Made by a program: the position numbers and the translations under genes
The notes under the pieces: model-generated
Seen by the model: only the letters and a program-made list of their open reading frames with translations
What the model was told of the DNA's origin: nothing
The model's database searches: none
From: a virus
Direction: 5' to 3' (one strand)
Length of the DNA stretch: 37,363 nucleotides
Virus record (IMG/VR): IMGVR_UViG_3300008113_000398
Span: 1 to 37,363 of that record
Shown here: positions 6,288-27,301 of the stretch, piece after piece
How positions within the stretch are numbered: the first letter of the stretch is position 1
Layout of the letters: each line of letters begins with the position of its first letter

Positions 6288-6363
6288 TGGTGCCCCCGGT
6301 AGGATTTGAACCCACGACCTTCGCTTTACAAAAGCGCTGCTCTGGCCTCTGAGCTACAAGGGC
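6288..6363 (-). tRNA. tRNA-Thr (anticodon UGU), CCA encoded
   Basis: Read on the minus strand, a full cloverleaf folds: acceptor GCCCTTG pairs with CGGGGGC (two G-U), D-arm GCTC/GAGC, anticodon stem GCGCT/AGCGA with loop TTTGTAA (anticodon TGT), and T-stem GTGGG/CCTAC with TTCAAAT loop. Discriminator A and CCA are encoded. The outer pair of the anticodon stem is a G-A mismatch. It lies between large terminase and the 72-aa gene in the same direction, so it must be cut out of the virion mRNA. UGU reads ACA threonine codons. Confidence 0.93.
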
Positions 6364-6388: not shown

Positions 6389-8110
6389 TCAAATCGGGTA
6401 TAGTGGCTCCCAATTCTTGTTTCCCTTGAAGGAAAGTGTGTCTTCCAGCTCTGCCCGCCACTCATCTGGCCGGAGAATGACCCCCGTATCACGTAAATGG
6501 CGCATGGCCATGGACACGGTATCCACCAAGTCATCGTGCTTGCCCTTGGGGAAGGTGCCAACTTGGGTGATGACCATCTCAGCCCACTGGTAGCCGGGGG
6601 CAAAGACTAGCCCTTCGGCAAAGAGATGCTGCACGGAGTACAGCCTAGCCAGCTTATCTTGGCTCTTGGGGTCAAACATATGCACCCCAAACCGCTCATA
6701 GCCGTACATGCGGCGAATTTCTTGGGCGACTGAGTGACCGGCAGCCTTGTTTTCAATCAGCAACTGGTCAACTTGGAACTTACGGGAGGTTTCTGCCACC
6801 TTCTGAACCAGATCATGCAGCTCATACCTACCCTGCCATGCGTACATAAGCATGACTCTGGGGGCTACCTCTTGGTATTCGCGGGTGTAATCAACCAAGG
6901 TGCCTTGACGATTCGCGGCATGTGTAGGTGCTAAGGCACTGACATCACTAGAAAAAATTCCCCACACGGTCATAGCAGACGGATCGTTCTCCGTCTTGGT
7001 GGTGTAGGCCGTATCTACGCAGGCGATTACGAGGTCCATGTTGGGATAGTTCTGATTATCCCATGGCTGCCACCATTCGCGTTTGATGATACCGCCGCCT
7101 TTGGGTTCTGGGCGCTGTTGGAGCTGGCCCGCAGCCGCCCAAGGACCCAATTGCTTTTCCAGAATTGTGACTTCTTGTTCGCCAAAGCGTTCTGGCCAGA
7201 GAAGGGCACCCTCACGGTCTTCAAGTTCCACCTCCGCTTCGGGGGTGACTGGAATGCGATTACCTTCTTCATCGGTGGTAACAAGGCTGACTCCTTCGTC
7301 TGTCACGCCACGGGGGTCTTCCCAGCCAAGTTGGGTAATGGAATGCCTGCGCCACTCATACCGCATTGGCAGGCAGAGGTGGGTCCATTCTCCCTCGTCC
7401 TTAGACATAATGTGCCCGGTCAGGTCTTCTTCCGAAAGCCTTTGTTGGATGACCACGAAGGCACCCGTCTTGGGGTCGTTAAGGCGGGTCGATAGGGCAG
7501 AGTCCCACCATTCAATGGTCGATGCGATGGTAGCTTCGGAGAAGGCTTCTTGCGCGGCATTTGGGTCATCAACCACGATAATCGAACCACCTTCACCCGT
7601 AAGTGCGGACCCAACTGAAGTTGAAAGACGGGAGCCATTCTTATCATTGTCAAACCTCGTCTTGGTGTTCTGGTCGCCTGTCAGCCTAAACCTGTCACCC
7701 CAGAGGCGCTGATACCATGGGCTTTCAATCAGACGGCGACATTTCACGCTGTCACGCAGAGAAAGCTGCTGGGCATATGAGGCATGAAGGAATTGAACGC
7801 CCGGACCAGAGGTCGGCGTATTCCATGGTTGTGCCCATACCCATGCGGGGAAAGCTACAGATGTCAAAGATGACTTGGCGCAGCGGGGCGGGATGTTGAT
7901 AATTAGACGTCTAATCTCACCATCTGCGACTGCTTGCAGATGCTCTGCCACGGCTTCAACTGGCCAGCCGTCAGTGAATGGCGAAGCGTCGATGTAGCGC
8001 CAAGCGTGCTTCAAGAACGTGTATAGGTTGTCTTCGCAGTCGGCGCGGTCTAGTTCGTCCAGCTGCTTGTTAATGTCAATCTGTTGACCGTCTAGGTTTA
8101 GAATGCTCAT
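6389..8110 (-). CDS. terL: Terminase large subunit (DNA-packaging ATPase/nuclease), 573 aa
   Basis: The N-terminal ATPase domain has a Walker A variant INIPPRCAKSSL (about residues 72-82), Walker B SIIVVDDP (176-183), and an Arg-rich region between them typical of phage motors. The C-terminal RNase-H-like nuclease domain has an acidic triad pattern: VIACVDTAY (D366), LLIENKAAG (E453) and KHDDLVDTV (D526/D527/D530). Length is normal for the family. It drives DNA into the capsid through the portal and cuts the concatemer. It overlaps the upstream DUF551-like gene by 4 nt (ATGA). The cognate small subunit appears to be at 9507-10229, separated by an inverted segment, which is less compact than the usual terS-terL pair. 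Confidence 0.95.
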   Translation of the reverse strand: MSILNLDGQQIDINKQLDELDRADCEDNLYTFLKHAWRYIDASPFTDGWPVEAVAEHLQAVADGEIRRLIINIPPRCAKSSLTSVAFPAWVWAQPWNTPTSGPGVQFLHASYAQQLSLRDSVKCRRLIESPWYQRLWGDRFRLTGDQNTKTRFDNDKNGSRLSTSVGSALTGEGGSIIVVDDPNAAQEAFSEATIASTIEWWDSALSTRLNDPKTGAFVVIQQRLSEEDLTGHIMSKDEGEWTHLCLPMRYEWRRHSITQLGWEDPRGVTDEGVSLVTTDEEGNRIPVTPEAEVELEDREGALLWPERFGEQEVTILEKQLGPWAAAGQLQQRPEPKGGGIIKREWWQPWDNQNYPNMDLVIACVDTAYTTKTENDPSAMTVWGIFSSDVSALAPTHAANRQGTLVDYTREYQEVAPRVMLMYAWQGRYELHDLVQKVAETSRKFQVDQLLIENKAAGHSVAQEIRRMYGYERFGVHMFDPKSQDKLARLYSVQHLFAEGLVFAPGYQWAEMVITQVGTFPKGKHDDLVDTVSMAMRHLRDTGVILRPDEWRAELEDTLSFKGNKNWEPLYPI

Positions 8111-8400: not shown

Positions 8401-8464
8401 AGAAAATATAAACCTATAGGTTGATTTGTGCTATAGTGAGTCATCATGGACAGAGGGGGTCCTT
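8401..8464. promoter_or_regulatory. Divergent promoter/operator region between virion operon and Tat-protein gene
   Basis: A perfect 12-bp palindrome AACCTATAGGTT lies at 8411-8422. On the plus strand TGCTATAGT (8429-8437) is an extended -10 type element upstream of the gene at 8465. On the minus strand 8442-8431 reads GACTCACTATAG, identical to the 12-base core of the T7 RNA polymerase promoter. Which of these is used cannot be decided from sequence; the elements overlap. Confidence 0.45.
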
Positions 8465-8926
8465 ATGATAACCAGACGTTTTGTACTATCCGGCCTTGTT
8501 GCCGCGCCAGCGGTTATAGCTGCGGATAAGCTCATGCCAGTACATTCACTACCAAAACGCTATGCCACTGTATGGGGCGTAGGCCATGACCTTGAGGTTG
8601 TGGAACATGTTGTATGGGACCAGCAGGGTGCTTTAGACTTTTGGAAGTTTAACGGGGGCATAGATAAGTTCCGTGAAGTCACGGATATTGTCTATGGCTT
8701 CAAAATGCCACCGTTGCCCAAACCAGTAACGCAGCCGCATTGGCATGTTGACCCATTGGCGCGGTTTGGCCGTCCGGTAGATGATAGCCGTGGGATACCC
8801 AATATCACTGGATATAATCAGCTAAACGCATGGCGGGAAAGCTTGCGGCCTGACCTTGATGGTCGCGACAGCGTTGAATGGATACAGGAACAGATCAAAG
8901 CTGAACGTAAGTTCTTAGGCAGCTAA
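8465..8926 (+). CDS. Small exported protein with Tat-type signal, 153 aa
   Basis: ATG at 8465 follows GAGGGGG at 6 nt spacing and is preferred over a GTG at 8426, which would disrupt the signal peptide. The N-terminus MITRRFVLSGLVAAPAVIAA is a twin-arginine type leader: RR-F-V-L, hydrophobic core, Ala-rich cleavage region. The mature part (about 130 aa) has HVVWDQQGALDFWKF and ends with HWHVDPLARFGRPVDDS and a charged helix. Proteins of this type occur in phages of Alphaproteobacteria, with no assigned function. It is alone on the plus strand, followed 5 nt later by tRNA-Gly, so the two are probably co-transcribed up to the terminator at 9154. Confidence 0.75.
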   Translation: MITRRFVLSGLVAAPAVIAADKLMPVHSLPKRYATVWGVGHDLEVVEHVVWDQQGALDFWKFNGGIDKFREVTDIVYGFKMPPLPKPVTQPHWHVDPLARFGRPVDDSRGIPNITGYNQLNAWRESLRPDLDGRDSVEWIQEQIKAERKFLGS

Positions 8927-8931
8927 GTAAA

Positions 8932-9005
8932 GCAGGCGTAGTTAAACGGTAGAACATCTGGCTTCCATCCAGAGGACAGGGGTTCGACTCCCCTCGCCTG
9001 CTCCA
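8932..9005 (+). tRNA. tRNA-Gly (anticodon UCC), CCA encoded
   Basis: Acceptor GCAGGCG pairs with CGCCTGC, followed by T and an encoded CCA. The anticodon stem TCTGG/CCAGA closes a CTTCCAT loop giving anticodon TCC. The T-arm AGGGG/CCCCT has loop TTCGACT. It reads GGA glycine codons; several virion proteins of this phage are very glycine-rich, so extra tRNA-Gly could help late translation. It begins 5 nt after the Tat-protein stop. Confidence 0.95.
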
Positions 9006-9008
9006 TCA

Positions 9009-9021
9009 TTGAACAGTTCAA
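9009..9021. repeat. Perfect inverted repeat next to parS
   Basis: TTGAACAGTTCAA is a 6+1+6 perfect palindrome that starts 4 nt after the tRNA-Gly CCA and ends 3 nt before the first parS. It could be an operator or a processing hairpin for the tRNA 3' end. Confidence 0.4.
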
Positions 9022-9024
9022 CAA

Positions 9025-9040
9025 TGTTTCACGTGAAACA
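9025..9040. promoter_or_regulatory. parS: parS site 1 (ParB-binding palindrome)
   Basis: TGTTTCACGTGAAACA is an exact 16-bp match to the conserved bacterial chromosomal parS consensus bound by ParB. It is fully palindromic. No ParB or ParA gene is visible in this window, so the site would recruit the host ParB or a ParB encoded outside the window. Confidence 0.88.
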
Positions 9041-9153
9041 TCTAAGGGGCCCAATGGTTCTGCTGGAAAAACCCCGCCAGATATGGCATAGTATCTCAGT
9101 GGGTAGGTGACTGGAACCGCCGACCCACGCCATAGATCACTCCATGATCAGAA

Positions 9154-9191
9154 AGCCTCAGATGGGACCCGCACTCCCTCTGGGGCTTTTT
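9154..9191 (+). terminator. Rho-independent terminator after Tat gene and tRNA-Gly
   Basis: AGCCTCAGATGGGA pairs with TCCCTCTGGGGCT (one bulged T, one G-U) around a 7-nt loop CCCGCAC, and is followed directly by TTTT. It is well placed to end transcription coming from 8465 through tRNA-Gly, and isolates the parS-containing segment. Confidence 0.85.
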
Positions 9192-9386
9192 CTTGGCTCG
9201 GTACATAGGGGAGGTATAGGGGCTATAGGCCATAAAGGGACCCATAGTCTGTATATACCAAAAAGGGGGACCCATAAGGGGGACCCATAGGGGGGGTAGT
9301 GTTTCACGTGAAACATAGGGGAGGTAAGGGGACCCAATTACAAATTGCCAATACTGGGAGATTCCGTGGGAGGGGTTCAGGGACCC
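9164..9386. repeat. Cluster of six GGGACCC motifs flanking parS site 2
   Basis: The near-palindrome GGGACCC occurs at 9164, 9237, 9267, 9280, 9329 and 9380; three copies extend to GGGACCCATA. A 14-bp direct repeat ACATAGGGGAGGTA is at 9203-9216 and 9313-9326, the second copy starting inside parS site 2. No gene is present from 9006 to 9506. Location between the terminase subunit genes makes a packaging (pac/cos), partition or replication site plausible; this is inference. Confidence 0.55.
9300..9315. promoter_or_regulatory. parS: parS site 2 (ParB-binding palindrome)
   Basis: Second exact copy of TGTTTCACGTGAAACA, 275 bp from the first. Two perfect 16-mers in one 300-bp non-coding segment cannot be chance. 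Spaced parS pairs are typical nucleation sites for ParB-CTP clamps. Confidence 0.88.
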
Positions 9387-9506
9387 AGACCCGACCCGGC
9401 CTTCTATTAGGCGGCCATGGGTGGGGGGCCAAAAGGGGGGCCGGAAGCCGCCCCGGCCTGTCAAAGCCAAGGCCGCGCTTGCCAAAGCCTAGCACAAGTC
9501 CGCCTG

Positions 9507-10229
9507 TCAACTGTCCCCATTGTCAGGGCTTGGCAGGGCTCCCCCATTGTCACGGGCGGCCAATAGCAGAGTCCGCAACTGTTCCCGCTTGTCAGGGTCT
9601 AAGTCCCGCCCCGATATTGTCAGGGAATTGTTATTGACAGTAACCACGGGCGGCGGGGCTTTGCTTTCCGCATACTGGCCGGGGTTAAGCCTTTCCGCAT
9701 ACCATTTGAGGCTGTCAGTCACTAATCGGGCCGCACCGACCATGGCAGAGTCCACAAGCGGCTTGGCAGGCCTCCCGTCCCCGTCCGGGGCTTGTGGAGT
9801 CAATGCCAATGCCAAAAGCCTTTGGGGGACTGACAAGGCTTCACTAAACGCCCAATCGGCCAAAGCTTGCCTTGCCCGCGCGTATGTTTCCCGGCAAAAG
9901 AGACCTTCTTCCCCCGTTTGATTCAACCAATCCCCGAAAGTACTAGCAGGGATTCCTACTTCCCTTTGGGCTTCATGGCATGGCAAGCCTTGGCCCATAA
10001 GGTCACATACGGCCTTAAACCTTTCCCTGCTATATGTGCTTTTCCTTCCCCTTGTTTCCTTCCGGGCTTCCGCAATGCTTGCCTTTGTTTCCGCCCTTAT
10101 AGTTGGCAGGACTTGTGAGATTGTTTCCCGCTTTTGCCTTGTGCTAGGCCCCTTCCCCATGGGCTTGGCAAAGGCCGCCGCTATATCGTCCGGGCCAATA
10201 GGCCGCTTGTCTTTATTCCTTCCCGCCAT
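9507..10229 (-). CDS. terS: Terminase small subunit-like DNA-binding protein, 240 aa
   Basis: After a basic, Ala-rich N-terminus of about 55 residues, RGRKSTYSRERFKAVCDLM begins a helix-turn-helix (GLPCHEAQREVGIPASTFGDW), followed by YARARQALADWAFSEAL. Later AARLVTDSLKWYAERLNPGQYAE matches the conserved C-terminal signature of Sf6-like small terminases (kW-a-kL-P-xYg). The small subunit recognises the packaging site and loads the large subunit. It starts after a GGGGG ribosome site and is transcribed towards the parS/GGGACCC segment. Codon choice (GCC, CCC, TCC, GGG) matches the neighbouring MoxR operon and differs from the rest of the window. Confidence 0.78.
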   Translation of the reverse strand: MAGRNKDKRPIGPDDIAAAFAKPMGKGPSTRQKRETISQVLPTIRAETKASIAEARKETRGRKSTYSRERFKAVCDLMGQGLPCHEAQREVGIPASTFGDWLNQTGEEGLFCRETYARARQALADWAFSEALSVPQRLLALALTPQAPDGDGRPAKPLVDSAMVGAARLVTDSLKWYAERLNPGQYAESKAPPPVVTVNNNSLTISGRDLDPDKREQLRTLLLAARDNGGALPSPDNGDS

Positions 10230-10544: not shown

Positions 10545-11999
10545 ATGTTCGACAATGCTACCGCCCCAAAGGCCGCCAAGCTTTCATTTTCTAGCGCAGG
10601 CAAGTCCGCCTTGCGTTCAACTATTACTGCCAATGCCGGATGGCCCGCTTATTCCCGCCAAAACGGCAAGTCTAGTGCGGACCTTTCCGTGGGGGACATG
10701 CTCGCATTGGCCGCCGCTTTCGGCATTGACCCGGCCCCCTATTCAACGGGCCAATTTAATGAAGGGCCAAAGCCAATGACTTATTCCGCCACGGAAGCGG
10801 CCAATCTATTTGTCCGCTTTGACAATTGCCGCCATAAAATGACTGATAAGGCCCGCCGCCTTTGCTATGACATTTTTGAAACGTCCAAAAATAAGCAAAC
10901 GGGCCAAATGACGGCCCGGCAATATGACACTATTGCCGCCATTTGCCATGAAGCCGAAACGGGGGAAAAGCGGGCCTTTACTGGCCGCCGCCGCCGCTTC
11001 CGTGACAATGGCAACGACTCCGGCCAGTCCGCCGCTTATGAAGCCAAGGCGGAAGAAAAGGCCGCACAAGTCCCGCCGCCCCCGCCAAACAATGCCGCCG
11101 CGCCTAATGATTTGGCCGCCGCCATTGCCGCCGCCATTGCCGGGGTGCTCCAAAACACAATGAACGGGGACGCAATTGCCGCCCTTGTGGACTCCAAGAT
11201 TCAAGCGGCCCTTGCAAGCCAAGGCGGCCCCGCCGTCCGCATTGAATTAAAGGACACAAGCGGCAATGTGCGGACTCATGACGGCTTGCAACATAAAGCC
11301 TTTAAGACTCTGGCCCGGATGGCCGCCGCGCGCCAAGCCAATGGATTCCCCGTGAATATATGGCTTGCTGGCCCCGCCGCTTCCGGCAAGACTCATGCGG
11401 GACAGGACTTAGCTAAGCTTATGGGCCTTGGCTTTTATGGTATGGGCGCAAAAGCCACGGCCTTTGACGTTTTGGGCTTTATTGATGCGGCGGGCCAGTA
11501 CCACGGGACTCCTTTCCGGCAAGCCTTTGAACACGGCGGAATCTGCCAATTTGACGAATTGGACTCGTGGGAAAATGAAGCTTGCTTGGCCCTGCAATCG
11601 GCATTGGCCAATGATTTTTGCCAATTTCCCGACTCCATCGTGAAGCGCCACCCTGACTTTATTTGCATTGCCGGGGCTAACACGTGGGGCCACGGGGCCA
11701 CGGCGGACTATGTGGGGCGGACTAAACTAGACGGGGCTTTCCTGTCCCGCTTTGCCAAATTGCCATGGGATTACGACACGGACCTAGAAACGGCCTTGTC
11801 AGGCAACCCCGCCTTTGCCGCCCGTGTCCAAAAGGCCCGCGCCAAGGCCGCACAAGCGGGCCTTAAAGTCCTGATAACCCCCCGTGACACTATGGCCGGG
11901 GCCGCTTTGATTGCGGCGGGCTTTAGTGAAAATGAAGCGGCGGCCCTGACTTATTTGGCCGCCCTGTCCCCGGATCAAAAAACCATTGTGGAGGGCTAA
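10545..11999 (+). CDS. MoxR/CobS-type AAA+ ATPase, 484 aa
   Basis: Residues 250-480 form an AAA+ module: Walker A AGPAASGKTH (K282/T283), Walker B ICQFDELDSW (D337/E338), sensor-1 GANT (N379) and an arginine finger LSRF (R402). This matches the CobS/MoxR branch (AAA_5), which remodels partner proteins, often one with a VWA-like fold. The first 240 residues are not ATPase: a mixed helical segment with RFDNCRHKMTDKARRLCYDIF, then a Pro/Ala linker (PPPPPNNAAAPN) and an Ala-rich helix. The next gene starts 4 nt after its stop and probably encodes the partner. Codon use is strongly GCC/TCC/CCC-biased. Substrate unknown. Confidence 0.85.
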   Translation: MFDNATAPKAAKLSFSSAGKSALRSTITANAGWPAYSRQNGKSSADLSVGDMLALAAAFGIDPAPYSTGQFNEGPKPMTYSATEAANLFVRFDNCRHKMTDKARRLCYDIFETSKNKQTGQMTARQYDTIAAICHEAETGEKRAFTGRRRRFRDNGNDSGQSAAYEAKAEEKAAQVPPPPPNNAAAPNDLAAAIAAAIAGVLQNTMNGDAIAALVDSKIQAALASQGGPAVRIELKDTSGNVRTHDGLQHKAFKTLARMAAARQANGFPVNIWLAGPAASGKTHAGQDLAKLMGLGFYGMGAKATAFDVLGFIDAAGQYHGTPFRQAFEHGGICQFDELDSWENEACLALQSALANDFCQFPDSIVKRHPDFICIAGANTWGHGATADYVGRTKLDGAFLSRFAKLPWDYDTDLETALSGNPAFAARVQKARAKAAQAGLKVLITPRDTMAGAALIAAGFSENEAAALTYLAALSPDQKTIVEG

Positions 12000-15448: not shown

Positions 15449-16935
15449 GCCGCCTTCCCCCTAAACTGGCTCTTGGCGCGGCGAATGTTTCTGGACTTAA
15501 TCCAGCTTTGAACGTCAGGAGAAAGATCAGGGGCCGGGATTTTCAGGAGAAAGGATGGCGGAGTGACTTTGAACTTGTCCTTGAAGGCCCAGTAAGCCCA
15601 TCCCGGCTTGTAGCCCCGAAGGTTGGCATGAAGGATCAGGTTTGAATACCAGTGTTGCAGATCGTTTTTCGTATATTGGTTAGCCTTGGATTTTTTATCA
15701 CGGGTTAATTCCTGCAATTCCCCCTCTTCGCATTCAATTTTGGATTTAGGCTGAGGCTGAAAACCGCATGAGGGGCAATTACGGGCCTTCAAGGGTTTTA
15801 CGAAATGGCATTGGGGGCATTCCTTTGGCAGTAATTCCTTTACCTGCTTGGCTTCCCGCTTTGCCGTGCCATCATCCAGCCTTTCGTGATGGATGTCTGT
15901 CACGAAGCCCAACCGCAGTGTCGTGTCGGAGTGGTCCAAGATCAGGCAGTGGTCCTTGCCGGGTGCGGTACGAAGTCCCCGGCCAATCATTTGGACATAC
16001 AGGATTTCAGATTTAGTCGGCCTCGCCAGAATGACACAGCGAACGTCAGCGTCGAAGCCAGTTGTCAGAACGCCCACGTTGCAAATGATCTTCACTTGGC
16101 CAGAGGCAAACTTTTCCAAAATGGCTGCCCGGTCTGCCAAATTGGTGAAAGCATCCATGTAAGCTGCCGGGACGCCGTGTTCTTCAAACCGCTTCTGGAT
16201 ATTCTTGGCATGGACCCGGTTGACAGCGAAACAGACCGTTGGACGCCATTCGGCCCGTTCCAGCCATGTCGAAACAATATCAGCGATCAGCGTTCCCTTG
16301 TTCATCGCCGTGCCAAGGCCAACGGTGTCATAATCGCCACGAACTGTTTTGACAGCCGACAGGTCGGGATGAGACGGGGCATAAACCTTAAAATCTGACA
16401 GGCTACCTTCTTCGATCAGCTTTTGGGTTGTCGTGGCAACAATCAGGTCATCCCACATCCCCTGACTACCCATGCCCTTGGACCATGGGGTTGCCGTAAG
16501 TCCGACGAAGGGGACATTTTTCCAGCGGTCCTCTTTGAACCATTTTTCATACAGACGAAACATCACATGGGCTTCGTCGATAATTACCAAATCAGCCTGC
16601 GGAATATTTCGCCGTGCCAAAGTCTGAACTGAGCAAACCTGAACTGGCTGCGAATAATCCGTCAAATCGTGGATGCCCTGAATTACACCCAGATCGAAAA
16701 TGCCATTAGCCCGGAAGCGTTCAACGGTCTGGTCGATCAGTGACAAAGCCGGGACACAGAACAAAACCTTTTTGCCCTTCTCCCGCGCCATGTTGACGAG
16801 GGCAGCGGCGATGACAGTCTTGCCAGCTCCGGTTGGGGCTTGGACCACCGGGCGCTTTGACCCCCTGCCAAGGGCCTGACGAAGCTGGTTGATGGTTTCT
16901 TGCTGATAGTCTCTGAGAGTTATTGCATCGGTCAT
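15445..16935 (-). CDS. DEAD/DEAH-box superfamily 2 helicase, 496 aa
   Basis: SF2 motifs appear in order: Walker A APTGAGKT (33-40), motif II DEAH (120-123), motif III LTATP (146-150) and motif VI QMIGRGLR (315-322). A C-terminal zinc ribbon follows, CPQCHFVKPLKARNCPSCGF (C373, C376, C387, C390). This Ssl2/UvrB-like form is common in phages and takes part in replication or recombination. It is translationally coupled to primase. The upstream leader at 16936-17108 contains GA-rich repeats that could control expression. Confidence 0.92.
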   Translation of the reverse strand: MTDAITLRDYQQETINQLRQALGRGSKRPVVQAPTGAGKTVIAAALVNMAREKGKKVLFCVPALSLIDQTVERFRANGIFDLGVIQGIHDLTDYSQPVQVCSVQTLARRNIPQADLVIIDEAHVMFRLYEKWFKEDRWKNVPFVGLTATPWSKGMGSQGMWDDLIVATTTQKLIEEGSLSDFKVYAPSHPDLSAVKTVRGDYDTVGLGTAMNKGTLIADIVSTWLERAEWRPTVCFAVNRVHAKNIQKRFEEHGVPAAYMDAFTNLADRAAILEKFASGQVKIICNVGVLTTGFDADVRCVILARPTKSEILYVQMIGRGLRTAPGKDHCLILDHSDTTLRLGFVTDIHHERLDDGTAKREAKQVKELLPKECPQCHFVKPLKARNCPSCGFQPQPKSKIECEEGELQELTRDKKSKANQYTKNDLQHWYSNLILHANLRGYKPGWAYWAFKDKFKVTPPSFLLKIPAPDLSPDVQSWIKSRNIRRAKSQFRGKAA

Positions 16936-26796: not shown

Positions 26797-26815
26797 CATG
26801 ACCAGTGAGGCTGAT

Positions 26816-27301
26816 ATGAAAGATATACAGAAGCAAATATACAAACTTTGGGAATCTGGATACCCGGCCAGTGAGATCGCCAAAGAAGTCTGCATCACCC
26901 GAAATGCCGTTATGGGGCATCTGTTCCGTATGCGTCAGGCAGGTGTTAAGATGAGGCAAAAGCCACCATCAGCAAATGCTAAGAAAGCCGCACCGCCACC
27001 GCCTTCAAAGAAGACGGTTGGTGTGCAAAAGATGATACGGAGACTTCCTGCGCCGAAGAAACCAACGCTGGAAGAGATTAACCCGCCACCGCTGATCCCA
27101 AACGGCGATCCCGTGCCAATGATGAAGTTGTCACGGTATTCTTGTCGGTATGTTGTCAATCACGGCGAGGTGAAGAGCTTCTTGTTCTGTAATGCCAGAG
27201 TAAAGGATGGCAGCTCTTACTGCCCTCACCACCATGCGATCTGCTATGTCCCGCTCTCCAATACGAGGCCCCGGCGTAAAAATGATGATGCTACAGCTTA
27301 A
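26816..27301 (+). CDS. gcrA: Phage-encoded GcrA-family cell-cycle regulator, 161 aa
   Basis: ATG at 26816 follows GTGAGG at 5 nt; an ATG at 26798 lacks a site. The N-terminus matches the GcrA DNA-binding domain: IYKLWESGYPASEIAKEVCI then TRNAVMGHLFRMRQAG. A Pro/Lys linker leads to the C-terminal part SRYSCRYVVNHGE, FLFCNARVKDGSSYCPHHHAICY, equivalent to the Cys/His-rich sigma70-contact region of GcrA. Cellular GcrA binds RNA polymerase with sigma70 and activates promoters with methylated GANTC sites in Alphaproteobacteria. A phage copy could redirect the host cell cycle or phage middle promoters. Confidence 0.85.
   Translation: MKDIQKQIYKLWESGYPASEIAKEVCITRNAVMGHLFRMRQAGVKMRQKPPSANAKKAAPPPPSKKTVGVQKMIRRLPAPKKPTLEEINPPPLIPNGDPVPMMKLSRYSCRYVVNHGEVKSFLFCNARVKDGSSYCPHHHAICYVPLSNTRPRRKNDDATA

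Follow-up and report, generated by a model that had tools for sequence, protein, structure and literature searches.

Two exact copies of the 16-bp palindrome TGTTTCACGTGAAACA, at positions 9025-9040 and 9300-9315, place host-type parS sites between the genes encoding the small (terS) and large (terL) terminase subunits of a phage, and sites of this kind are conserved at the same address across the clade to which the phage belongs. It is very probable, judging from the comparisons presented here, that these parS sites are read by the ParB protein of the host. We further favor, with lesser confidence, the reading that the palindromes are working parS copies through which host ParB would couple the phage genome to the ParA, SMC or polar machinery of the cell for positioning or co-segregation.

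The stretch of DNA considered here in its entirety (37,363 bases; referred to as the window) comes from IMG/VR, where this viral contig is classed as linear; it is possibly incomplete. Its assignment to a phage, made earlier in a sequence-only reading, was borne out by matches of terS, terL and the portal, primase and helicase genes to PHROGs families. Genes encoding a RecE-like exonuclease and a methyltransferase were also noted, and no major capsid protein was identified in the window record. As the window lies on a phage record, in which the proximity to oriC that defines a chromosomal parS is not found, the claim made here concerns a site of the parS type carried by a phage and not a chromosomal locus.

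When the whole window was searched for TGTTTCACGTGAAACA with up to three mismatches allowed, only the two sites described in that reading were recovered, both of them exact. Dinucleotide-shuffled versions of the window, as compared to these two real copies, contained 0.13 matches on average. The palindrome corresponds to the 16-mer listed as the parS of Hyphomonas neptunium and fits the parS consensus of B. subtilis and Caulobacter (PMC7022226). Moreover, when 58 genomes sampled evenly across the Alphaproteobacteria were examined, the same 16-mer was present in 42, mostly in one to three copies that are often about 2 kb apart, such that the identity of the phage sites with bacterial chromosomal parS was upheld. 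Both sites fall in the interval between terL and terS (Table 1). Site 2 lies inside a mechanically called ORF of 129 amino acids (9096-9485, minus strand), which was treated as spurious, and a 3' flank similar to that of site 1 is also seen at a site in the close relatives L147 and L151.

Table 1. Features of the window that are relevant to the parS sites.
Feature	Position	Strand	Remarks
terL, terminase large subunit	6389-8110	-	phrog_38, E 6e-85
Gap ORF, reverse-oriented	8426-8926	+	tblastn: 32-78% identity in many family members
Noncoding part of terS-terL gap with parS array	8927-9506	.	putative packaging/control region
tRNA-Gly (anticodon TCC), in terS-terL gap	8932-9005	+	ARAGORN; Rfam tRNA, 67 bits
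parS site 1, TGTTTCACGTGAAACA	9025-9040	.	exact 16-bp palindrome; ~20 bp 3' of tRNA-Gly gene
GGGNCCC short palindromes, 7 copies in 341 bp	9046-9386	.	around and between parS sites
parS site 2, TGTTTCACGTGAAACA	9300-9315	.	exact; 275 bp from site 1
terS, terminase small subunit	9507-10229	-	phrog_1482, E 8e-19; Pfam Sf6_terminase, E 3e-11
GcrA-family cell-cycle regulator homologue	26798-27301	+	Pfam GcrA, 69 bits, E 6.5e-19

The noncoding part of the terS-terL gap accounts for 580 bases, out of a noncoding total of approximately 5,270 for the window, and, together with the parS sites, holds the group of GGGNCCC palindromes, which comprises 7 of the 12 copies found in the window. This group could possibly correspond to TerS/pac sites or to replication iterons; GGGTCCC groups also occur in the terS-terL gap of relatives lacking parS (L005, L006 and L008). 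The ORF found in the gap has no PHROGs or Pfam match, and the tRNA detected there by ARAGORN in other family members is tRNA-Gly, Gln, Ser, Pro or Leu. A simple promoter and terminator scan of the gap yielded matches no more often than expected by chance. Outside the gap, a gene encoding a CobS-like AAA ATPase (phrog_249; 10545-11999) adjoins terS in the opposite orientation and is followed by the gene for a DUF7192 protein, while a tRNA-Thr(TGT) gene (6288-6363), for which DNA of 88-92% identity exists in Synechococcus phages, lies between terL and the portal gene.

The distribution of parS was then considered in relatives of the phage. Those identified through TerS include L001-L003, which are more than 99.9% identical to the window and hence uninformative on conservation, and the more distant L004-L008, where one exact parS is present in L007 and none in L004-L006 or L008. 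An unbiased sample was assembled by aligning the TerL proteins of the family and drawing 80 relatives on the basis of TerL alone. In this sample, 103 exact parS copies were found in the 253 kb upstream of terL, as opposed to none in the 420 kb from terL onward. Of the loci that extend 1.5 kb or more upstream of terL, at least one copy was present in 34 of 58, a few of these loci being duplicates of one phage. The sites number one to five per phage, are variably spaced and cluster in the terS-terL gap, being found between the two genes wherever terS was located. The one doubtful exception is L166, in which one parS (1771) may overlap the start of terS. Across 15 whole family records, matches with up to two mismatches were no more numerous than the known gap sites.

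Recent common inheritance of a single block was rejected as a full account of this distribution, given that flanks and spacing differ. Indeed, 92 of the 94 fully flanked sites have distinct 40-bp surroundings, with the flanks outside the 16 bp being near-random, apart from a weak preference for R before and Y after the palindrome; the same R/Y flanks are seen at 14 of 27 parS sites from alphaproteobacteria or other bacteria. In the gaps of parS-bearing phages, 89 exact copies, 10 copies with one mismatch and none with two were counted, indicating that decaying copies are rare and that decay is purged. Chance as the origin of the sites is ruled out by the shuffled windows, by the upstream-only distribution in the family and by this mismatch spectrum. 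As to the imperfect copies, TGTTTCACGGGAAACA or its complement represents 7 of the 10 and is found upstream of terL in L154, L155, L173, L174, L193 and L194. In several contigs, parS lies less than 50 bp from a contig end (L058:43, L156:31, L164:35, L075:14, L049:5023 and L107:4943), which may reflect assembly breaks in the gap or the presence of genome ends there. Tandem TTTAG-type repeats (TTTAGTTTAGTTTAGTT) were observed in the terS-proximal part of the gap in L026 and L053.

In a tree of TerL proteins, the group containing the window (SH-aLRT 87) carries parS in 35 of 38 scorable rows. Three rows are exceptions; one of them, L155, contains a copy with a single mismatch, and another, L183, is truncated short of the point at which sites are found in its near-twin L185. 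Loss of the sites in close relatives, named in the sequence-only reading as an observation that would speak against its proposal, was thus looked for and the opposite was seen, with parS being kept across the clade while flanks, spacing and TerS diverge. The sites are conserved and not accidental. Sister clades with the same genes lack parS, from which it follows that the phage body plan can do without the function served.

To address the source of the protein reading the palindrome, 30 family records, the window included, were searched with profiles for ParB_N, AAA_31 (ParA) and phage/tyrosine integrase (PF00589) domains. None was detected, although the controls were; as many of the records are fragments, the absence of ParB, ParA and integrase is strong and not absolute. 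A self-contained phage ParABS, comprising the phage's own parA and parB, was likewise not found in these records, and the earlier description of host-type parS on a phage without ParB holds for the window record, in which neither domain is present. The same reading had named recognition of the palindrome by a phage-encoded protein other than ParB as an observation that would speak against its proposal. TerS is the obvious candidate for such a protein, and the possibility that the palindrome is due to sequence bias may be added. The position of the palindrome next to terS would suit such a protein. However, TerS proteins of the family are only 25-57% identical to that of the window, in contrast to a 16-mer that does not vary and is shared with unrelated phages, which makes a phage-encoded reader unlikely. 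In an IMG/VR pattern scan, exact parS was found in at least 120 viral stretches, whereas two control palindromes of similar composition were each found in two. We accordingly consider recognition by something other than host ParB, or a compositional origin, to be highly improbable.

The host itself is plausibly a member of the Alphaproteobacteria, in light of the GcrA-family gene and the occurrence of the 16-mer in genomes of this class. No GcrA-family gene was seen in the limited loci searched of other family members. Genome searches for the host returned Ruegeria prophages as distant TerL relatives (27% identity), in which parS is lacking, and a few MAG contigs with TerL proteins of 64-70% identity that had been placed in beta-proteobacterial, Paceibacterota and Rhodospirillales bins. 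These may be misbinned phage contigs.

Beyond the family, the matches listed in the wider scan include 50 parS records of 15 kb or longer; a TerL was recognized in 22 of them with one Pfam family, and only 5 showed a ParB_N match of any kind. Contamination by host chromosome was judged unlikely for the window family. A PHROGs tally of the genes beside parS in the wider set was mixed, with terminase large subunit families being the most frequent. When the closeness of parS to TerL was assessed over whole records in 23 parS phages of many families, the window included, weak enrichment was obtained (6 within 2 kb vs. 2.6 expected; p ~0.035), the strong positional signal being confined to the family of the window and to a second group, termed group 2. 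In group 2, in which TerL is 26-30% identical to that of the window, parS lies some 30-140 bp upstream of terL while the surroundings diverge, and a TerL-based sample revealed parS within 200 bp to be kept in 6 of 15 close members. The group 2 member L106/L229 contains TGTTCCACGTGGAACA, a symmetric double change that preserves the palindrome, beside an exact copy. In L028, L036, L038 and L110, also of group 2, the sequence upstream of parS holds a further conserved element resembling CCATGTTTCTCACAAATAATCATGTGAAAAATGATAT. In Pelagibacter phage HTVC027P, noncoding DNA of the terS-terL interval includes CGTTTCACGTGAAACA, a one-mismatch copy, at position 16412. No parS with up to three mismatches was found in the isolates checked by TerL, namely, CRP-902, Pkon1, RHph_X3_2, DSL-LC04, MinM2, phiAO1 and 023Pt_psg01.

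To our knowledge, phi29, in which we know of no ParB, represents the sole precedent of a phage using the ParB of its host. Four TGTTTCACGTGGAACA sites fitting the B. subtilis consensus are present in phi29, and one of the records returned by the IMG/VR scan (L103) is Bacillus phage Goe1, a member of the phi29 family with one exact parS and one variant. Exact copies are found in Goe1, B103, BSP11 and Chedec 11; in this family, an exact copy falls within the gene for the endolysin, immediately ahead of that for the packaging ATPase. As entrapment of phi29 in the spore is reported to be Spo0J-dependent (Meijer 2005, as cited in PMC9437464), the phi29-family matches provide a positive control for the scan, and Spo0J presumably acts on phi29 through these very sites. 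The window family resembles phi29 in that several host-consensus parS sites are carried by an apparently virulent phage with no known ParB. By contrast, phi29 infects a sporulating host, with its DNA entering the spore; its sites are spread over the genome rather than arrayed between terS and terL; and its genome type and packaging motor are unlike those of the window family. Considered together, group 2, HTVC027P and phi29 suggest convergence on the carriage of parS.

Other elements offer partial parallels. P1, N15 and actinophages possess parS centromeres together with their own ParA and ParB and cognate parS, whereas neither protein was found in the 30 records of the window family. SGI1 contains two mimics of the IncC plasmid parS and hijacks the plasmid ParABS (PMC10954446); like the phages addressed here, it is a mobile element whose parS belongs to another replicon, the ParABS of which it exploits, although SGI1 targets a plasmid and not a chromosomal ParB and is an integrative element and not a phage. 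In the alphaproteobacterial phages for which CtrA-based 'lytic deferment' has been described, CtrA sites are concentrated in one region, and it has been suggested that they link lysis with the cycle of the host (PMC9437464). Tests of CtrA, GcrA, SciP and DnaA sites are listed in that study, in which neither ParB nor parS is brought up. The clustering of sites for a host cell-cycle protein in one genome region is common to both cases, yet the protein differs, and CtrA sites were rejected as an explanation here since the window contains no TTAA-N7-TTAA. Hence, the borrowing of another replicon's ParB through its parS is already known, be it host ParB by phi29 or plasmid ParB by SGI1. For host parS arrays that are restricted to the terS-terL gap throughout a clade, no report was found in the open-access literature, with preprints and subscription papers being sparsely covered.

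ParB loads at parS, closes as a CTP clamp and slides over adjacent DNA. In the reading favored here, host ParB would bind parS in the phage terS-terL gap and, as expected from established ParB biology, would close and slide over the neighboring phage DNA. Loaded ParB would then couple the extrachromosomal phage genome to host ParA/SMC or to polar hubs, and such coupling may position the genome or co-segregate it during delayed lysis, much as phi29 does with Spo0J in Bacillus. That related viruses keep one to five sites beside the packaging genes and have no ParB gene suggests that they probably borrow the host segregation machinery. Whether positioning or segregation is the main use is a separate matter; we regard this as a real possibility that falls somewhat short of an even chance. 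Against it, the restriction of the sites to the interval between terS and terL is left unaccounted for by segregation alone. Nor did the 'plasmid-like prophage' envisaged earlier gain positive support, with integrase, ParA and ParB being absent from the 30 family records. As no lysogeny or plasmid-maintenance genes were found among those sought, a long-lived carrier state is conjecture.

The confinement of the sites to a gap that also contains GGGNCCC groups is what would be expected were host ParB, along with recruited SMC, to load beside the packaging start and there organize, individualize or protect the concatemer end on which terminase acts. The presence of parS just upstream of terL in distant phages, and before the packaging ATPase gene in the phi29 family, points in the same direction. 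Still, close relatives package their DNA without parS, many parS-bearing viral contigs have no TerL of the window family near the site, and phi29 has further copies elsewhere in its genome, such that we consider a role in organizing packaging to be unlikely, if worth entertaining. Somewhat less probable is that the sites report on copy number or the cell cycle, with spreading ParB repressing terS and terL early and replication later diluting ParB so as to free the packaging genes. The placement of parS upstream of terL, often within the short distance seen in group 2, would permit this, ParB over parS can alter the expression of nearby genes (PMC7022226), and host CtrA has a regulatory role in other phages of Alphaproteobacteria (PMC9437464). 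On the other hand, in the window family hundreds to thousands of bases mostly separate the sites from terL, with variable spacing, and the promoter-like matches in the gap do not exceed chance. More doubtful again is a decoy role, in which replicating phage genomes titrate host ParB and so disturb origin segregation and division. Each phage genome has 1-5 sites, as compared to mostly 1-3 on a host chromosome, and the parS-like copies of SGI1 destabilize the helper plasmid, an effect that is stronger when their copy number is higher (PMC10954446), yet nothing about a decoy would call for its restriction to a single gap.

These findings suggest that environmental phages commonly carry host centromere sites in the absence of ParB, and that in one phage clade the possession of parS is nearly fixed, as is its address, namely, the terS-terL gap. 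It is conceivable, if improbable, that many apparently lytic aquatic phages independently placed host parS arrays at the packaging locus, where ParB and perhaps SMC would serve as organizer or switch; if true, this would directly link the bacterial centromere machinery to phage DNA packaging. The predicted CTP-clamp loading sites would be natural ones on a small replicon, making effects of ParB, ParA and SMC on phage DNA testable, and the 16-bp sequence offers a handle with which to find such phages and constrain their hosts.
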